Positions 51,625 through 62,413 are shown, numbered from the stretch's first letter. The stretch is DNA of 64,000 nucleotides from Bacteroidota bacterium (GCA_018267825.1 JAFDXR010000021.1:62001-126000), one strand, 5' to 3'. Numbers and translations are program-made. Notes: a model not told the origin generated them from the sequence alone.

Positions 51625-52077
51625 ATGAGACTGGTTATTCAGCGCGTATCAGAAGCATCTGTTACTATCGAAGGAAATGTAAAAGGCAAAATCGGGGCCG
51701 GATTATTGATCCTGCTTGGCATTGAAGAAGCCGACACAACAGATGATATTGACTGGCTCGCCCAGAAAGCCGTAAACATGCGTATTTTCCCGGATGCTGA
51801 AGGCAAAATGAATCTGTGTGTAAAAGAGATACAGGGCAGCATTCTGCTCATCAGCCAGTTCACCCTGCACGCCTCTACCAAAAAAGGCAACAGGCCTTCG
51901 TTTATCAAAGCAGCCCGTCCCGAACAGGCCATTCCGCTGTATGAAGCGGCTATCCGTAAATTTTCTGCCGAACTTGGCATGCCTTTACAAACCGGTGAAT
52001 TCGGGGCAGACATGAAAGTAGCACTCATCAATGATGGTCCTGTAACCATCACGATCGACTCCCGAAATAGAGAATAA
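51625..52077 (+). CDS. dtd: D-aminoacyl-tRNA deacylase
   Basis: Removes D-amino acids mischarged on tRNA (and Gly from tRNA-Ala). The 150-residue protein has the two active-site motifs SQFTLHASTKKGNRPSF and the GP motif NDGPVTITID, which gives L-chiral rejection through cross-subunit cis-proline. The start MRLVIQRVSEASVTIEG is canonical. The downstream neighbour in many Bacteroidota is a MazG-like pyrophosphohydrolase; here three other genes lie between. Confidence 0.96.
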   Translation: MRLVIQRVSEASVTIEGNVKGKIGAGLLILLGIEEADTTDDIDWLAQKAVNMRIFPDAEGKMNLCVKEIQGSILLISQFTLHASTKKGNRPSFIKAARPEQAIPLYEAAIRKFSAELGMPLQTGEFGADMKVALINDGPVTITIDSRNRE

Positions 52078-52322
52078 TCTTCCCTATTCGTCTTTATCGG
52101 TTTGTATCTCTTTGCATAGAAGCCCGGGCGATTCTTCCTGTCCACGTTCCACATACACAATATAATCGCCTGACAACAAACCTTTTACAGGTTTTTATTT
52201 TTACGTGTTACCATTCTGTGTTTTATACTATAAAGGGATTCATTGTTTTTCGCACGCGTAGAAAAGCAGCAGATCCCGGGTAAACCGGATACCCGAAAAA
52301 TAAACCAAATTAAACCAGCCTT

Positions 52323-53672
52323 ATGAAAACAAAATATATAGCCATTATCACCGGTGCGGTTTTCGTGATTACCGTAACAATGGTGTGTATGATGCAAAAA
52401 GCATCGGCAGACGAAACATCCAAACAACCCAGAACAAAACAAAAACAAATCATTGCAGCAAAGCATTCATCAGGATCAGAGCCGGTATCGGAGCCGGCAG
52501 CAAAAAAAGCAAACAGCCATAAGACGATTGCCATCAAAAAGAAAATAAAACCAACATTACAAAAAGTCCCGCAGATTATTCAGCAACCGGCTGTAACAGT
52601 GGCAAAACCACAAAGCACCTTATTCAGTACCAACTACCTCGAAGCGCAGGAGTTCAATCTGCCTTTCAATACCGACACGGAAATCGTAGCCAAAGAGGGT
52701 ATGAAAGTTTCCATCCCGGCGAATGCCTTTGTTACGAAAAGCGGCAAACCTGTAAACGGACGCATTAAATTCGAAGTGAAAGAAGCGTTTACACCACAGG
52801 ATATTGTTATGGCAAACCTTGTCACCAAAAAAGGAAAAGACCTGCTCGAAAGCGGCGGTATGTTTTACCTGAATGCCACCAGTAATAATGAAGAACTTGT
52901 GGTGGCAGAGGGAAAAAAACTGGGGATTGAGGTGCCCACACCTACCAAAGAAAAAGGAATGGAACTATACAAAGGCTTGCAGACCGAATCCGGACTCGAC
53001 TGGACAGAGCCTCTGGCCATGAACGACGACGAATTGGTATTGAAAGAAAAACCACTGTTGGCAGAAGCCAAAATAGCAACCCGTACTATTTACAATGACG
53101 ATGTGATCGTAACAGGTTCTGAAAACACCGTTAATTCCGGTAAAAAAATCGGCAGGATCAAGGAAAAAGCCATTGATAAAATTGCCGTGAAACGCGACAG
53201 TCTTGGCTGGATAGCCGGGATCACAAAAACAGACGGCATGATGGGTGGCAACAATAATCATTTTTCGGAAGACCATGCTCTGAGCTACCTGATGCAGACC
53301 AACCGTATGGGCTGGGCTAATATAGACCGCTTATGCAGCGATCCCCGGTCGCGCCGGGTTAATTTTGTAACCATGGTAGAAAATAACACAAGCTACCAAA
53401 ACGTTTATATCAGTATGTTATTCAAATCGAAACGAATCTATCTACCGGGTTATCAGAAAGCAGACGGTACTTATTCATTCACGCATGGCGATTATGAAGC
53501 GCCGGTATTACCGGTTGGAGAAACAGCATTTATTATGGTGAGTGCCTATAAAAACAATGAACATTTTTTCTCCATGCAGCAAATCGAAATTTCCGATAAT
53601 ACAGCTGTAACCCTGTCGCCGGTGAAAGCCACGGAAGATGAAATTAAAGCAGAAGTCAATAAATCTCTGTAA
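52323..53672 (+). CDS. Membrane-anchored or secreted ZU5-like beta-sandwich protein
   Basis: A 449-residue protein with one N-terminal hydrophobic segment (residues 5-25), possibly an uncleaved anchor, and a Lys/Gln/Pro-rich linker (30-95). Then comes a domain (about 105-215) with EGMKVSIPANAFVTKSGKPV and IKFEVKEAFTPQDIVMANLVT, the motif I recall from ZU5-like extracellular domains in Bacteroidota. The C-terminal half (320-445) is a second beta-rich domain of unknown type. It leads a tight cassette with an ECF sigma gene 15 bases later. A role as sensor or output of that sigma factor is inference. Confidence 0.7.
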   Translation: MKTKYIAIITGAVFVITVTMVCMMQKASADETSKQPRTKQKQIIAAKHSSGSEPVSEPAAKKANSHKTIAIKKKIKPTLQKVPQIIQQPAVTVAKPQSTLFSTNYLEAQEFNLPFNTDTEIVAKEGMKVSIPANAFVTKSGKPVNGRIKFEVKEAFTPQDIVMANLVTKKGKDLLESGGMFYLNATSNNEELVVAEGKKLGIEVPTPTKEKGMELYKGLQTESGLDWTEPLAMNDDELVLKEKPLLAEAKIATRTIYNDDVIVTGSENTVNSGKKIGRIKEKAIDKIAVKRDSLGWIAGITKTDGMMGGNNNHFSEDHALSYLMQTNRMGWANIDRLCSDPRSRRVNFVTMVENNTSYQNVYISMLFKSKRIYLPGYQKADGTYSFTHGDYEAPVLPVGETAFIMVSAYKNNEHFFSMQQIEISDNTAVTLSPVKATEDEIKAEVNKSL

Positions 53673-53687
53673 CTTGGTCTGAGCGTC

Positions 53688-54284
53688 GTGCAAAGCATCA
53701 AAGACATATTAGCTGATAAAAACCGGGGAGCCGAGTGGCTATACCAACAATTTGGCCGCAAGCTTCTCGGTTATTCCATCCATACCTACCACATCAACGA
53801 AGATGCCGGCTGGGACCTGGTGTATAAGTCTATATACAAAGTCATTGATGTCAGTCATAACTATACCTTCGAAGATGAGAAAAGAGTCGGCTCTTTTATT
53901 TTCAAGGTTTTTATCAATTACCTGAAAAATCATATCCGCGACGAACGCACCAGAACCAATAGTGCCGTATTTATTTCGCTCGACGAGACCCGAAAAGACT
54001 TTGTTCAGAAACCTGAAAGCCGTAGCCAAAACCCGAAGATGCAGATTCTGAATGAGGAACTCAGCAAATTTGAAGACTGGCAACGCATGCTCCTGCTTAT
54101 GAGAAGCCAGGATATGTCCTATGCCGAAATTGCAGCATTTATAAATAAACCCGAAGACCAACTGAAAGTATATTACCAACGTTTGAAAAATAAACTGGCT
54201 GAGGCTGTTCAAAAACGCGTGCAGCAGGCCAATACATCATTAGAACCGAATACAGATACAAACCCAAGCTTTAAACCTATGTAA
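53688..54284 (+). CDS. ECF-family RNA polymerase sigma factor
   Basis: The 198-residue product is a group 4 (ECF) sigma factor. Region 2 covers about 10-85 (GWDLVYKSIYKVIDVSHNYTFEDEKRVGSFIFKVFINYLKNHIRD, quoted only in part). Region 4 covers about 125-180, with a helix-turn-helix in MSYAEIAAFINKPEDQLKVYYQRLK (in part). The start is GTG 53688. The C-terminal 20 residues are polar. It lies 15 bases after the ZU5-like gene and 11 before a membrane protein that could be its anti-sigma factor. Its target promoters are unknown. Confidence 0.85.
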   Translation: MQSIKDILADKNRGAEWLYQQFGRKLLGYSIHTYHINEDAGWDLVYKSIYKVIDVSHNYTFEDEKRVGSFIFKVFINYLKNHIRDERTRTNSAVFISLDETRKDFVQKPESRSQNPKMQILNEELSKFEDWQRMLLLMRSQDMSYAEIAAFINKPEDQLKVYYQRLKNKLAEAVQKRVQQANTSLEPNTDTNPSFKPM

Positions 54285-54295
54285 CACGTTTATCC

Positions 54296-55879
54296 ATGCA
54301 AACGAATGAACATATTAATCCGGACAATTTAGACGACTTGCTCAAAGACGCCTTTCTTGATCTGAATCCCGACGATGCCACAGACAGCCGCCTGATGGAT
54401 GAAGTTGCGTCGAGCATTTACAGCCGCGAATGGCCGGGCGGACAAGCCCCTGCCGGTACCGGCAAAACTCCCGGAAAAATCAGCACGATCAAACCGTGGA
54501 TCTGGTATTTATCATCGGTTCTGTTACTGGCAATACTCGGCTATGCGGCATGGGCATGGCTTGGTAATACAAGTCATGAAACAGAAGAAATTGCTGACAA
54601 TACCCCACCTATAAATTCAGCTGTTAACCAGACAAACACACTTTCCTCTTCCGGCGAAGCTGTATCCGCTACCACCGTAGCCCTGGCCTCTCTGAACCAG
54701 GAGCAGGAACAGGTTTCCAAAGTCACTGAAAAATCCGCATCAAACGTTCCGTATACCAAAGAAAAAAACATATCAAAAAATAATGATACGGAAAACACGT
54801 ATAATGGCACCGGATATACAACACGAACGATCATTCAAAGCGTATCTTCAAAAGACGATAAACAACAGGTATCAAATTCAAATAACACAGTAGTAACGGC
54901 TTCTGTAACTGAAACCCACCCGACAACAGAATCCGATTTGCAGAACCAGGCGCAGAAAACCGACAGTATGACTGTTGTTACACAAACTGTCTCTTTACTG
55001 AGCCCCGAAGAACTCAAAGCGCATGAAATAAAACTGTCTACCATGATGGGCACTATGGCCGGTCTTAAATTCGACGATTACAGCTTTATTCATGTAGATG
55101 ACCCGGCTGCCAATATTAAAACCGAGTTTTACCTGAAAAAATATGAGGTTACAATTAAGGAATATAAATTATTCCTCGACGATCTTCTGGCTCATGGTAA
55201 ATCCAAAGAATACGAGGTAGCCCGGCCGAAGCCCGAATTGGTGTGGAATGACCCGAAAGACAAAAGCAGCAAAAAATTCCTGTTGCAGTATTTACAGAAA
55301 AACACCTTCGAAAATTATCCGATTATCTGCATCTCCAAAGAAGGCATGGAAATGTATTGCTCATGGATCAAACAGCAGATAGAATCCTATTACAAAAGGA
55401 ATAAAAACACCATTTCCCTCGATGTGCGCCTCCCTTACCTCACAGAGTGGAAATACGCTGCTTCCGCTGGTAAGCGGAGTCACAAATATGGCACAGCCAA
55501 TGGACGCCTGAAAATGCTCGGCTGGAGAACGCATTATATTGCCAACTTCGCCGAATCGCAACGGAAATTCGTAGCGCTCGACGACACCAATGCCACAAAA
55601 CCAAGCGATGCACAATCGGTGAGAACGGTAAACCGCTATGTGTTTACAACAGCCAGCAGCGAGAATTCGGCAGTGTTTCACCTCAATAACATGAGTGGTA
55701 ATGTGTCGGAAGTAGTCATTACACCGGGTGAAAACAACGTTAAAATATACAGAACCATCGGCGGTAACTGGAACAGCAACAAAAAATTCCTGAAGATCAA
55801 TGCCGAAGATGAGTTCAATGGTAATATCAGTCCATCACCTTTTATCGGTTTCAGACCGGTGATTATGATAAATAAGTAA
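54296..55879 (+). CDS. Transmembrane protein with SUMF1/formylglycine-generating-enzyme-like domain, possible anti-sigma
   Basis: A 527-residue protein with an N-terminal cytoplasmic part (1-65) that includes a conserved-looking segment (NLDDLLKDAFLDLNPDDATD). One membrane helix is at about 66-90 (IWYLSSVLLLAILGYAAWAW), then a Ser/Thr-rich linker (95-235). A C-terminal domain (about 250-527) resembles the SUMF1 (FGE/GldJ/GldK) fold: LKKYEVTIKEYKLFLDDL, LPYLTEWKYAA, NMSGNVSEVV, GGNWNSNKKF and PSPFIGFRPVIM. Active-site cysteines of FGE are not evident, as in GldK/GldJ. The single-TM topology directly after an ECF sigma gene suggests an anti-sigma or receptor, which is inference. Confidence 0.75.
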   Translation: MQTNEHINPDNLDDLLKDAFLDLNPDDATDSRLMDEVASSIYSREWPGGQAPAGTGKTPGKISTIKPWIWYLSSVLLLAILGYAAWAWLGNTSHETEEIADNTPPINSAVNQTNTLSSSGEAVSATTVALASLNQEQEQVSKVTEKSASNVPYTKEKNISKNNDTENTYNGTGYTTRTIIQSVSSKDDKQQVSNSNNTVVTASVTETHPTTESDLQNQAQKTDSMTVVTQTVSLLSPEELKAHEIKLSTMMGTMAGLKFDDYSFIHVDDPAANIKTEFYLKKYEVTIKEYKLFLDDLLAHGKSKEYEVARPKPELVWNDPKDKSSKKFLLQYLQKNTFENYPIICISKEGMEMYCSWIKQQIESYYKRNKNTISLDVRLPYLTEWKYAASAGKRSHKYGTANGRLKMLGWRTHYIANFAESQRKFVALDDTNATKPSDAQSVRTVNRYVFTTASSENSAVFHLNNMSGNVSEVVITPGENNVKIYRTIGGNWNSNKKFLKINAEDEFNGNISPSPFIGFRPVIMINK

Positions 55880-55888
55880 ATTTGTTTC

Positions 55889-56215
55889 ATGACAATTCAT
55901 GAAGCACAGCAAAAGGTTGATACCTGGATTAAACAATACGGCGTTCGCTATTTCAACGAATTAACCAACACGGCCATCCTGATGGAAGAAGTGGGCGAAG
56001 TTGCCAGGATTATGGCGCGCCGCTATGGCGAACAATCTGAAAAAGAAAGCGATAAAGGAAAGAACCTGGCCGACGAACTGGCGGATGTTATGTTCGTACT
56101 GATCTGCCTGGCTAATCAAACCGGCATTAACCTCGAGGAAGCCCTGGTAAAGAACCTCGATAAAAAGACCAACCGCGATACCGACCGGCATCACAATAAT
56201 GAAAAATTAAAGTAA
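55889..56215 (+). CDS. MazG-like nucleotide pyrophosphohydrolase
   Basis: A 108-residue single-domain all-alpha NTP-PPase of the MazG superfamily (dUTPase/iMazG type). The metal motif EEVGEVARIMARRYGEQ and DELADVMFVLICLANQTGI provide the EXXE...EXXD acidic residues. It is probably a housecleaning enzyme. It lies 9 bases after the SUMF1-like gene, likely in the same transcript. Confidence 0.9.
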   Translation: MTIHEAQQKVDTWIKQYGVRYFNELTNTAILMEEVGEVARIMARRYGEQSEKESDKGKNLADELADVMFVLICLANQTGINLEEALVKNLDKKTNRDTDRHHNNEKLK

Positions 56216-58987: not shown

Positions 58988-61900
58988 TTAAGGGCGTTTT
59001 GGTTTAACCGGCGATTGTACTCCATTTCCATTACCTCCGGGGTTTACAACAGGGTTACTATCTGTGGCAGGGTAAGTTACAGTAGCAGCCTTATCTGCAC
59101 TACCACCGGCATTGGTAGCTTTTATATCCAGAATATTGGCACCATTACTCAGCGGCGTCGTAAATGAAACCAGGTTGGTAGCAGGATCGAATGTAAAATT
59201 GGTAACCACAACCGAATTAAACTTCACTTCGAGCTGGCTGGCACTTGTAATGTTGTATACTACTGCTGTATAGGTAAACGTCTGATCATTGGTTGAGAAA
59301 TTGTCTCCGGCCGGATTGGTAAACATAAGCCCCGGAGGTTTTTCATTGTTATGTGTCACCACTTTAATGCCGCCTTCACCCGGATTTGAGTTGGTACGGG
59401 TGGCAAAGGTTACAGTTGCCTGTTTCGTATCAGTACCATCATTATTGGTTGCAGTCACCATGATCACGTTAGCACCATTTTGAAGATTGTCGGTAAAGCT
59501 ACCGTTTCCGCTTGCAGCATCAAAAGCAAACGCACTTACGACATTGCCATTCAGTTTAACTATTACCTGGTTTTGCTGCACATTGCTCACATTAAAATTG
59601 AATGTATAAGCAGGATTACTTACAGTAGGGTTTCCTGAGGGTTGGCTAATGCTCACAACCGGCGGATGTAATACGGTGCGTTGCTGCTTTGTAACTGTTG
59701 CCGATTTTGTATCAGAGCCATCGTTGTTATTTGCCTGGATCTGCAGTGTATTGGGGCCATTACCAAGGGCACCCGTAAATTCAAAATAACCATTGTTAAA
59801 TGTAAAATTGGTAACATTTACATTATTGTAAGTAACTGCCAGTTGCGAGGCAGATGAGATATTCTGGATGGTTGCTTTATAGGTATAGGATGGTGAATAC
59901 GTAGAACCATTGCCACCGGCCGGAGCATTAAATGTGATCTGTGGCGGGAGTTTAATATCCTCGTGGGTTCTGTAAACCACCGTAACAGATTTTGAATCGT
60001 TACCCGATGCGTTTGTCGCAGTAATAGTCAATACGTTATTTCCAACGGTGAGAGCCACACCGTTCAGAATGACTTCTTTGGTAGCCGGATTATAAATGAA
60101 ATAAACTGCATTACCGTTCAGTGTTACAGTTATATCGGGTTTCCCTGTTACACCGGTCACCGAAGCTTTGAAATTATAGGTAGCGTTATCGGTGGCGTTT
60201 GCCTCTGTTTCAGGCACGATGAAGGTTACAACAGGTGGTGGAAGTTGGATTTGTTCGTGCGGACGATAAACCACGTAAACAGATTTGCTGTCGGTTCCAA
60301 AGCTGTTTTTGCCGGAAACAGTAAACATGTTATTTCCAACAATAAGAGCTACATTATTTAATGTTACTTCTTTGGTGGCGGTGTTGAAATTAAAGGCCAC
60401 CGGAGAACCGTTTAATGTCACTGTAATATCTCCCTGTGAGGCAACATTCATCACGGTTGCATTGATATTGTAAACCGCGTTATCGGTTGAGTTTGCTTCG
60501 GAAGCCGGATTCACAAAGGTTACCAGTGGCGGTTTTCCCTGTTTTACCTGTCCGTTGTAGATAATGGCGGTAGATTTTGAATCTGATCCGAAATTATTAT
60601 TGGCAGTAATGTTAATGCTGTTGCTGCCTATCATAAGAGATACAGGAATTTCCACCCGTTTCAGGTTATTATCGAAAGTGAAATACACACCAGTTGTGCC
60701 ATTCAGACTTACCTGGATCTGGCTTTGGCTGCTTACATTCAACACCTGTGCTTTTACAGTATGGCTTGCCGACAAAGAAGTATACGGATTTTGTACCGGG
60801 TCAATATATGTAATAACAGGTGGTGGCGATTGCTGCTGTTGCTGCAATACCTGGTATATGATTGTAGCCGTTTTGGAATCGACCCCAAAAGCATTACTTG
60901 CTTTTACAACAATGGTATTGTTGCCCTGCATAAGTGTTAATGGTAGACTTAACTGATAATTTGTAGTGTTGTACGAGAAATTTGATGTCTGAACACCATT
61001 TACGGTCACAGCTATATCAGCGGCACCATTCACACCGGTTACAATAGCCAGAAGCGAATACTGCGGCTGATTGGTGGTATAAGGGTTTACCGATGGATTT
61101 ACAATAGTAACCTGCGGTGGATTACCCTGTGGCGTTTCGGCAGGTTTCCTGTATTCAATGTATACCGTTTTTGAATCTGTACCCGACACATTGGTTGCTT
61201 TGATTTTCACAAAATTAGTTCCCTCGTTCAGTGTAGCCATATACTCCAGTATATGTGTAGTCGGGTTGAATGTGAAATTACTTTGATTAAAGGCATTTAA
61301 CTTAAGCTGAATCTGAGAAGCACTCTCAACATTTAAAACCTGTGCACGAACCAGGTACTGTGCAACGCTCACAGTGCTCGATGTTGTAGCCGGATTAATA
61401 AAATCAACAATTGGTTTTGGAACCACATAAGGCGGATTCGTGCTGGCAGCTATCGTACTTGTAGGAACTACTGAATTGGTTGGCACCACGGTATTAGTAG
61501 TGGTTACCGTATTGGAATAAACCGGCACATAGGCGCGTGTCGTATCTACAGTATTTTTATGGCCTTTGCCTCTGAGCGTAAACAACAGGTTAATGCCCGT
61601 GTAGTGATAATAGTCTTTGCTTCCTGCAATCCAGTCATTGTTATGCCCCAGTTTGCCGTCCAGTAAATCCGCATTTACACCTTGCGGAAATGTCAGTTTA
61701 TATTCCCATAGCATAGAGAAGCCGGGCGAAAACTGGTATCCCAGGCCAATACCACAGGATGGTGAAAATGTGATCAGGTTCCCCCCCTTGCTGCCGTATG
61801 CATTGGATTCATAACTCTTGTCGTACATCGAGCGCAGTGAGCTCAGGGTTTGTGTAGAATTTCCACTGGAGTCAATTTTACTGAAATTGTAAAGCTTATT

Positions 61901-62413
61901 GTCTGCATCTTTGAGGTTGGTATATGTTCTGAAGCTTGTCATACCAACGCCTCCCCATAAGTTGAGCAACACATGGGTTTGTTCACGCAGGCGATTGAAT
62001 GAAATCTGGAGTTCCAGGGAGCCTTCCCCTAATTTCATTTTGTAGTTGTCGTATACATAACGACGGTAAGCGGGCATGCTGTCTACAAAGTTTACAGACG
62101 GATCGTATTTTCCATTCAATGCGTCGTTATGCTGAATATCATAATTCCGGGAGGTTCCAATCCCGTATGTATTGGCCGCCAGATAACGGCCGCGGATCGC
62201 AAAAGAGAAAAAGTTTGTTTTATTTTCCCCCAGGCCTTTCTCCAGTGTGAAACCACCGCCTACACCGGCTTTGCTCCGGATATCGGATGTTTGCCAGGCC
62301 GCACCTATATTCAAACCAAGGCGCCAGGAGTTATAGTAACGGGAGTAGTCAGATGTTTGTGAGAACAACCAAACCGGAATTAATAAAAAAAGCAGGAAGT
62401 AATGTTTTTTCAT
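58988..62413 (-). CDS. Secreted protein with N-terminal barrel-like domain and eight Ig-like repeats
   Basis: The 1141-residue product has a signal peptide (1-19) and an N-terminal domain (20-275) rich in alternating strands (WRLGLNIGAAWQTSDI, FSFAIRGRYLAANTYGI), resembling an OmpA-like eight-stranded outer-membrane barrel. A Thr/Pro/Val linker follows (about 290-335). Eight tandem modules of about 85-100 residues make up the rest, each with the core VTFVNPASEANST..YNINATVMNV, a VTLNGSPV turn, GNNxFTVxGKNSFGTDSKSV and a Pro-rich joint. The C-terminus is PVKPKRP with no T9SS domain. It is likely an outer-membrane protein extending Ig-like arms; partners are unknown. The OmpA-domain gene lies upstream. 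Confidence 0.78.
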   Translation of the reverse strand: MKKHYFLLFLLIPVWLFSQTSDYSRYYNSWRLGLNIGAAWQTSDIRSKAGVGGGFTLEKGLGENKTNFFSFAIRGRYLAANTYGIGTSRNYDIQHNDALNGKYDPSVNFVDSMPAYRRYVYDNYKMKLGEGSLELQISFNRLREQTHVLLNLWGGVGMTSFRTYTNLKDADNKLYNFSKIDSSGNSTQTLSSLRSMYDKSYESNAYGSKGGNLITFSPSCGIGLGYQFSPGFSMLWEYKLTFPQGVNADLLDGKLGHNNDWIAGSKDYYHYTGINLLFTLRGKGHKNTVDTTRAYVPVYSNTVTTTNTVVPTNSVVPTSTIAASTNPPYVVPKPIVDFINPATTSSTVSVAQYLVRAQVLNVESASQIQLKLNAFNQSNFTFNPTTHILEYMATLNEGTNFVKIKATNVSGTDSKTVYIEYRKPAETPQGNPPQVTIVNPSVNPYTTNQPQYSLLAIVTGVNGAADIAVTVNGVQTSNFSYNTTNYQLSLPLTLMQGNNTIVVKASNAFGVDSKTATIIYQVLQQQQQSPPPVITYIDPVQNPYTSLSASHTVKAQVLNVSSQSQIQVSLNGTTGVYFTFDNNLKRVEIPVSLMIGSNSINITANNNFGSDSKSTAIIYNGQVKQGKPPLVTFVNPASEANSTDNAVYNINATVMNVASQGDITVTLNGSPVAFNFNTATKEVTLNNVALIVGNNMFTVSGKNSFGTDSKSVYVVYRPHEQIQLPPPVVTFIVPETEANATDNATYNFKASVTGVTGKPDITVTLNGNAVYFIYNPATKEVILNGVALTVGNNVLTITATNASGNDSKSVTVVYRTHEDIKLPPQITFNAPAGGNGSTYSPSYTYKATIQNISSASQLAVTYNNVNVTNFTFNNGYFEFTGALGNGPNTLQIQANNNDGSDTKSATVTKQQRTVLHPPVVSISQPSGNPTVSNPAYTFNFNVSNVQQNQVIVKLNGNVVSAFAFDAASGNGSFTDNLQNGANVIMVTATNNDGTDTKQATVTFATRTNSNPGEGGIKVVTHNNEKPPGLMFTNPAGDNFSTNDQTFTYTAVVYNITSASQLEVKFNSVVVTNFTFDPATNLVSFTTPLSNGANILDIKATNAGGSADKAATVTYPATDSNPVVNPGGNGNGVQSPVKPKRP
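59015..61420 (-). repeat. Eight coding repeats of Ig-like modules
   Basis: At the protein level eight diverged modules recur at about 255-300 bases each, joined by Pro-rich linkers. DNA identity is modest, so the duplications are old or the repeats are evolving quickly. Modules 4 and 5 are the most alike. Confidence 0.65.

Follow-up and report, generated by a model that had tools for sequence, protein, structure and literature searches.

The three co-directional genes at 52,323–55,879 of the window, the analysed 64,000-nt stretch of DNA from an uncultured Bacteroidota bacterium (GCA_018267825.1, JAFDXR010000021.1:62001–126000), are read here with fair confidence as an autoregulated ECF sigma factor operon with a GldK-like membrane receptor, that is, as a cell-envelope sensing sigma/anti-sigma system with a T9SS/outer-envelope regulon. 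Computed support for this reading comes from the conservation of the tandem, the constant N-terminus and transmembrane (TM) helix of the receptor, its variable ectodomains, the GldK-type fold, the shared promoter element and the positions of motif sites. ORF calling in the window placed all three genes on the plus strand with intergenic gaps of 15 and 11 bp, just as a preliminary description of the sequence had placed them. The features of the locus are as follows:

51625–52077, plus strand: dtd (D-aminoacyl-tRNA deacylase), the 5′ flank (PF02580/TIGR00256)
52206–52240, plus strand: bipartite promoter-like element TGTTACC-ATTCT-GTGTTTTATACTATAAAG, core 52206–52224, 117 bp before gene 1; sole exact match in the window, conserved across cassettes
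52323–53672, plus strand: gene 1, exported protein of 449 aa with an N-terminal signal/TM segment; no Pfam match
53688–54284, plus strand: gene 2, ECF sigma factor of 198 aa with a GTG start (TIGR02937 above cut-off; alignment A3)
54296–55879, plus strand: gene 3, single-TM receptor and proposed anti-sigma factor of 527 aa (Pfam and topology)
55889–56215, plus strand: MazG-like nucleotide pyrophosphohydrolase, the 3′ flank (PF03819)

The flanking genes dtd and mazG have no gene between them in genome G004 and in some 18 genomes from other families. In the window genome (G000) and in G012, their junction holds the cassette; in G006, a cassette at the same junction lacks gene 1 and carries a TonB-type protein. 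Because G004 and G012 are congeners, the cassette has the look of an insertion into a dtd–mazG junction that is intact otherwise, which agrees with the earlier impression that it separates the two genes. The full triple of gene 1, ECF and TM-SUMF1 occurs in two genomes, the window genome and G012, where the gene 1 homologue is 46% identical. The genes do co-occur elsewhere: besides the triple in G012, the ECF/TM-SUMF1 pair is found in dozens of loci and a triple with swapped roles in about 20 genomes. The restriction of the full triple to two genomes is what could be expected if three functionally unrelated genes were neighbours by chance; however, the retention of the pair in dozens of loci, the placement of the promoter element and the dtd–mazG position in several genera make such a chance neighbourhood highly improbable. 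Further downstream in the window, 58988–62413 on the minus strand encodes an exported protein of 1141 aa with repeated Ig-like units and a weak Glucodextran_B match.

ECF genes often precede genes for single-TM anti-sigma factors, in which a short N-terminus lies in the cytosol and a sensor in the periplasm, and such pairs are autoregulated. Gene 2 was identified as an ECF sigma factor by NCBIfam TIGR02937 (49.8 bits against a cut-off of 42.9), while Pfam region 4 alone scored 21, below its cut-off of 25.7. The profile built for this ECF (alignment A3) hit 74 named genome loci and matched in 22 of 120 relatives, which belong to 12 of 57 genera. There are 72 distinct tandem loci, relatives' loci included, in which the ECF gene is joined to a single-TM partner with a median overlap of 11 bp, and the TM helix starts at residue 39–77 in 62 of these partners. 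The partner ectodomains vary, comprising one or two SUMF1/GldK-like domains, DUF4097 or A2M. A profile of the partner N-terminus, trained on SUMF1-type partners only, also picks up those whose ectodomain is DUF4097 or A2M, so the N-terminus and TM helix are constant and the periplasmic part is interchangeable. Among 1277 ORFs this profile hit nothing but ECF partners at E < 0.1; the matches without a partner label, namely the window protein, L082, L122 and L147, all come from ECF loci and have the same N-terminus. The ECF/partner tandem is thus built as a sigma/anti-sigma pair should be, which supports this assignment without amounting to proof.

Several loci extend the range of this pair. At L079, L086, L087, L104 and L117 and at L092, L111 and L148, the ECF and the N-terminal domain are kept and the ectodomains are of the DUF4097 (toastrack) or A2M/MG2 type, as seen with Pfam at L079, L087, L117 and L111. 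Distant ECF relatives in Sphingobacteriaceae-type genomes (L138–L145) are followed by a partner of about 197 aa that has no TM helix and a similar N-terminal motif, and a gene of about 335 aa often comes next.

Gene 3 is adjacent to the ECF gene and, from hydropathy and the structural model, has a single TM helix with the N-terminus inside. The following parts were distinguished:

54296–54490, plus strand: cytosolic N-terminal domain, residues 1–65, predicted helices 9–21 and 28–43 (model); proposed anti-sigma domain, constant among partners with unrelated ectodomains
54494–54565, plus strand: single TM helix, residues 67–90 (hydropathy and model)
54566–55003, plus strand: Ser/Thr/Asn-rich low-complexity stalk, residues ~91–236 (sequence; pLDDT < 50)
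55058–55876, plus strand: GldK/PorK-like FGE-fold ectodomain, residues ~255–527, without the catalytic cysteines (PF03781; PorK is the best sequence and fold match)

Residues 1–65 match no Pfam or NCBIfam family and no known anti-sigma family (ZAS, FecR N-terminus or RseA-like), and they contain no Cys for a zinc motif. It is proposed from the sequence comparisons that gene 3 defines a new anti-sigma-like N-terminal domain, one that is combined with sensor domains of several unrelated types; this N-terminus is likely to sequester the ECF. The idea that the SUMF1-like protein is a membrane anti-sigma factor or receptor, already put forward in the preliminary description, is thereby strengthened by the conserved tandem, the constant N-terminus and TM helix and the exchangeable ectodomains.

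It has been reported that PorK is an FGE fold repurposed for docking, a catalytically dead hub (PMC12421860), and that the SprF and PorG tails form their disulfide with GldK at Cys343 (PMC12635249). The gene 3 protein matches Pfam FGE-sulfatase (PF03781) with 59.1 bits (cut-off 23.3) over residues 268–521, and the NVSEVV and GGNWNS motifs read earlier from the sequence are present. A profile of the ectodomain from 14 homologues hits PorK at 3e-26, its best match to an FGE enzyme being at 4e-5; similarly, PorK is the best fold match of the predicted ectodomain (Z 19.3, 219 residues, rmsd 2.9), with PvdO and FGE structures at Z of about 14–15, in a model whose mean pLDDT is 63.7 and in which the stalk and residues 394–458 are poorly predicted. 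The protein scores 62.8 on the GldK equivalog TIGR03525 against a cut-off of 350, and the window genome has its own GldK, which scores 565.9. By sequence and predicted fold, the closest match of the receptor is therefore GldK/PorK rather than a generic SUMF1 protein. Residues 489–527 contain no Cys after GGNWNS, where FGE has its catalytic pair after the GGSW motif; FGE chemistry is thus not expected, and enzyme activity of this type was rejected for gene 3. The position of the invariant GldK Cys343 was placed by the motif GC.LANF, which we take to mark it in GldK; at this position gene 3 reads GWRTHYIANF and has no Cys, the equivalence being assigned by motif, and a GC.LANF-like motif with Cys is present in 12 of 27 aligned gene 3 homologues. 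Disulfide capture of a partner through this position was accordingly discarded for the window protein, on the same motif-based placement.

A shared promoter motif upstream of 52,323, the search for which had been suggested beforehand, was found in the form TGTTACC-N5-KTGTT and is conserved across cassettes. TGTTACC is present in 48 of 70 upstream regions against a shuffle maximum of 23, in none of 91 downstream antisense controls and in none of 28 sister cassettes (described below), and in cassette upstream regions it is often followed by N5-KTGTT. It usually lies about 30–105 bp before the ECF start where no partner gene precedes the ECF, and before the partner gene where one does, as in the window and G012. 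The strict pattern has one zero-mismatch site in the window. Since the element precedes gene 1 in the window, all three genes probably form one operon under a putative shared promoter, and this operon is probably autoregulated.

The strict pattern was also counted at genome scale. In 15 genomes with this ECF, 48 sites were found against 10 for the reversed-pattern control, and in 15 genomes without it, 16 against 17. When the 13 cassette sites are removed, the difference in site counts between the two groups is weak (Mann–Whitney p = 0.075). The positions of the sites, however, differ strongly. Where the ECF is present, 26 hand-selected sites outside the cassettes were inspected, and 20 of them are intergenic and less than 150 bp ahead of an ORF in the same orientation; where it is absent, none of 13 sites is so placed. 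In the window genome, where the ECF paralogs C11 and C13 could each account for the sites, these precede the two cassettes, a PorP/SprF protein whose tail reads YRPVSCPSF, a member of the OmpA family, a barrel of the outer membrane that weakly matches PorT/SprT, and a small protein with no function assigned; in other genomes, they precede PorE (three copies), PorP, OmpA-family proteins and T9SS CTD proteins. The candidate regulon is rich in T9SS and envelope genes, which is a description and not a tested enrichment, T9SS genes being abundant in these genomes; by NCBIfam, the window genome has gldK, gldL, gldM, gldN and a gldJ-type gene. Small Cys-containing proteins, apparently of one family, stand behind the motif in two genera (L278:3656–4090, with no Pfam match, and L287:246–704).

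The presence of T9SS genes in the candidate regulon, together with the GldK-like ectodomain and the lack of a known anti-sigma domain in gene 3, could also be read to mean that gene 3 is no anti-sigma factor but an activating partner, or else a structural accessory of the T9SS, co-transcribed with the ECF as a regulon member. Such an accessory would be predicted to keep its GldK-like part; the opposite is observed, since it is the N-terminus and TM helix that stay constant and the GldK-like domain that is replaceable, and we consider this reading unlikely.

The preliminary description had labelled gene 1 ZU5-like, a label that gained no support: PF00791 matches neither the protein nor, above cut-off, anything in the whole genome, and ZU5 homology was set aside for want of support from Pfam, PDB sequences and fold search, the last giving no clear PDB match with a weak two-sequence model of mean pLDDT 43. 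The gene 1 protein has only two cysteines, at residue 338 and close to the signal region, and its C-terminus is NKSL. The protein does carry a domain that recurs elsewhere:

52620–53036, plus strand: ESGGMF-type domain of gene 1, found again in the anti-sigma-like TM proteins at G000:C4 and C8 (alignment A7; C4 protein matched by phmmer at 1.2e-7)

This central domain recurs in a sister cassette with the order ECF, TM-ZU5-like protein and free GldK-like SUMF1 protein, in which the ECF is upstream in 28 of 28 loci reaching far enough and the SUMF1 gene is directly downstream in about 20 of 30. The sister cassette has the same three component types as the window locus, with the ECF followed by a single-TM protein, but the ZU5-like and SUMF1 proteins exchange membrane-bound and free roles and the upstream motif is TGTAACT instead of TGTTACC. 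This swap suggests that the gene 1 domain and the GldK-like SUMF1 domain act together, with binding between them putative. Sister cassettes are common across the family; the window genome has them at C4 (L056:6066–9352), with a free GldK-like SUMF1 gene downstream, and at C8 (L059:6422–8637), and it also encodes, at C27 (L057:7003–9381), a 792-aa TM protein with a ZU5-like domain and a cytochrome c domain.

As the earlier reading had it, gene 1 is tied to the cassette, being an exported protein in the same predicted transcription unit with the shared promoter element. It might nevertheless be a mere regulon member or effector, with the receptor sensing T9SS/gliding components or envelope stress; we give this alternative a substantial chance, somewhat short of even. 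Gene 1 occurs as a free exported protein in only two known ECF/TM-SUMF1 loci and is hence optional, exported proteins with its domain stand alone behind the same motif (G012:C22 and G016:C643), and unrelated proteins of the DUF4139, VWA or PorP type fill its slot at other loci. On the other hand, the pairing of its domain with GldK-like SUMF1, roles swapped, in the sister cassette suggests a direct relation.

In a clade whose receptor ends in PFW, the product of the gene just upstream of the ECF (DUF4139, VWA or PorP type) ends in a YRTxSCPxF-like tail at 9 of 12 loci, and at none of 45 loci outside the clade; the counts are not corrected for phylogeny, and as the loci are related, a p-value is overstated. 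The place of the tail-bearing gene of the PFW clade is taken in the clade of the window by another exported partner, and with gene 1 ending in NKSL the tail was rejected as ligand of the window receptor. A PorP upstream of the gldJ-type gene of the window genome (GldJ-like by NCBIfam) also ends with the tail, and a DNA pattern matching it is present in 105 of 150 relatives. The distribution of the tail fits a GldK-like receptor that reads a GldK-type partner, the window locus itself being without this tail. A bolder version, in which GldK was copied into an anti-sigma receptor and the mimic binds the partner type of the real track, so that the cell would read the state of its secretion/gliding machinery, is conceivable, though we rather doubt it. 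The window genome has a second ECF/TM-SUMF1 pair at C11 (L048:7266–11877), preceded by a DUF4139 protein ending in KRKYRTISCPAF and by another exported protein with no family assigned; the C11 promoter sequence is repeated upstream of a tail-bearing PorP at C32.

In the favoured sigma/anti-sigma reading, gene 3 would be an inner-membrane protein whose short cytosolic N-terminus holds the ECF and whose periplasmic part, a catalytically dead GldK/PorK-type FGE fold, would be used for docking. An event at this part of the protein, in the periplasm, would free the ECF, the direction of the signal being presumed, and the trigger would most likely be the gain or loss of a partner, either the co-transcribed gene 1 protein as putative ligand or T9SS/outer-membrane components. 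From TGTTACC-N5-KTGTT, the freed ECF would then transcribe both the operon that encodes it and a regulon made up of genes for the T9SS and outer envelope.

The cassette resembles the ECF/membrane anti-sigma pairs of Bacteroidota (FecR-type and others) in that the gene after the ECF encodes a protein which crosses the membrane once, between a short N-terminus in the cytosol and a sensor in the periplasm. Unlike FecR-type pairs, the gene 3 N-terminus falls outside the known anti-sigma Pfam families, a GldK/PorK-type FGE fold takes the sensor position of the FecR domain, and no neighbouring TonB receptor gene is needed. GldK/PorK, the T9SS ring or gliding track lipoprotein, is the nearest sequence and fold relative of the ectodomain, whereas gene 3 is membrane-anchored with a cytosolic domain, is not a lipoprotein and, by motif, has lost the SprF/PorG-binding Cys. 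ECF control of T9SS component genes has been reported for PorXY-SigP of Porphyromonas gingivalis and for the SM6 promoter class of Flavobacterium psychrophilum (PMC7712824, PMC9723704), and the same type of control is proposed here; however, SigP is controlled through PorX, while the proposed regulator of the cassette is a GldK-like TM protein, and SM6 has a CGT −10 box in place of TGTTACC-N5-KTGTT. A keyword search of the open-access literature, a scope outside which the main ECF reclassification falls, returned no description of an ECF system with a GldK/SUMF1 anti-sigma factor.

The cassette is a testable candidate for the means by which Bacteroidota beyond P. gingivalis could adjust the expression of their T9SS and surface genes, at the level of transcription, to envelope state, and TGTTACC-N5-KTGTT can be used for listing regulons. 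It also suggests that the PorK/GldK FGE docking fold has been reused for signalling.
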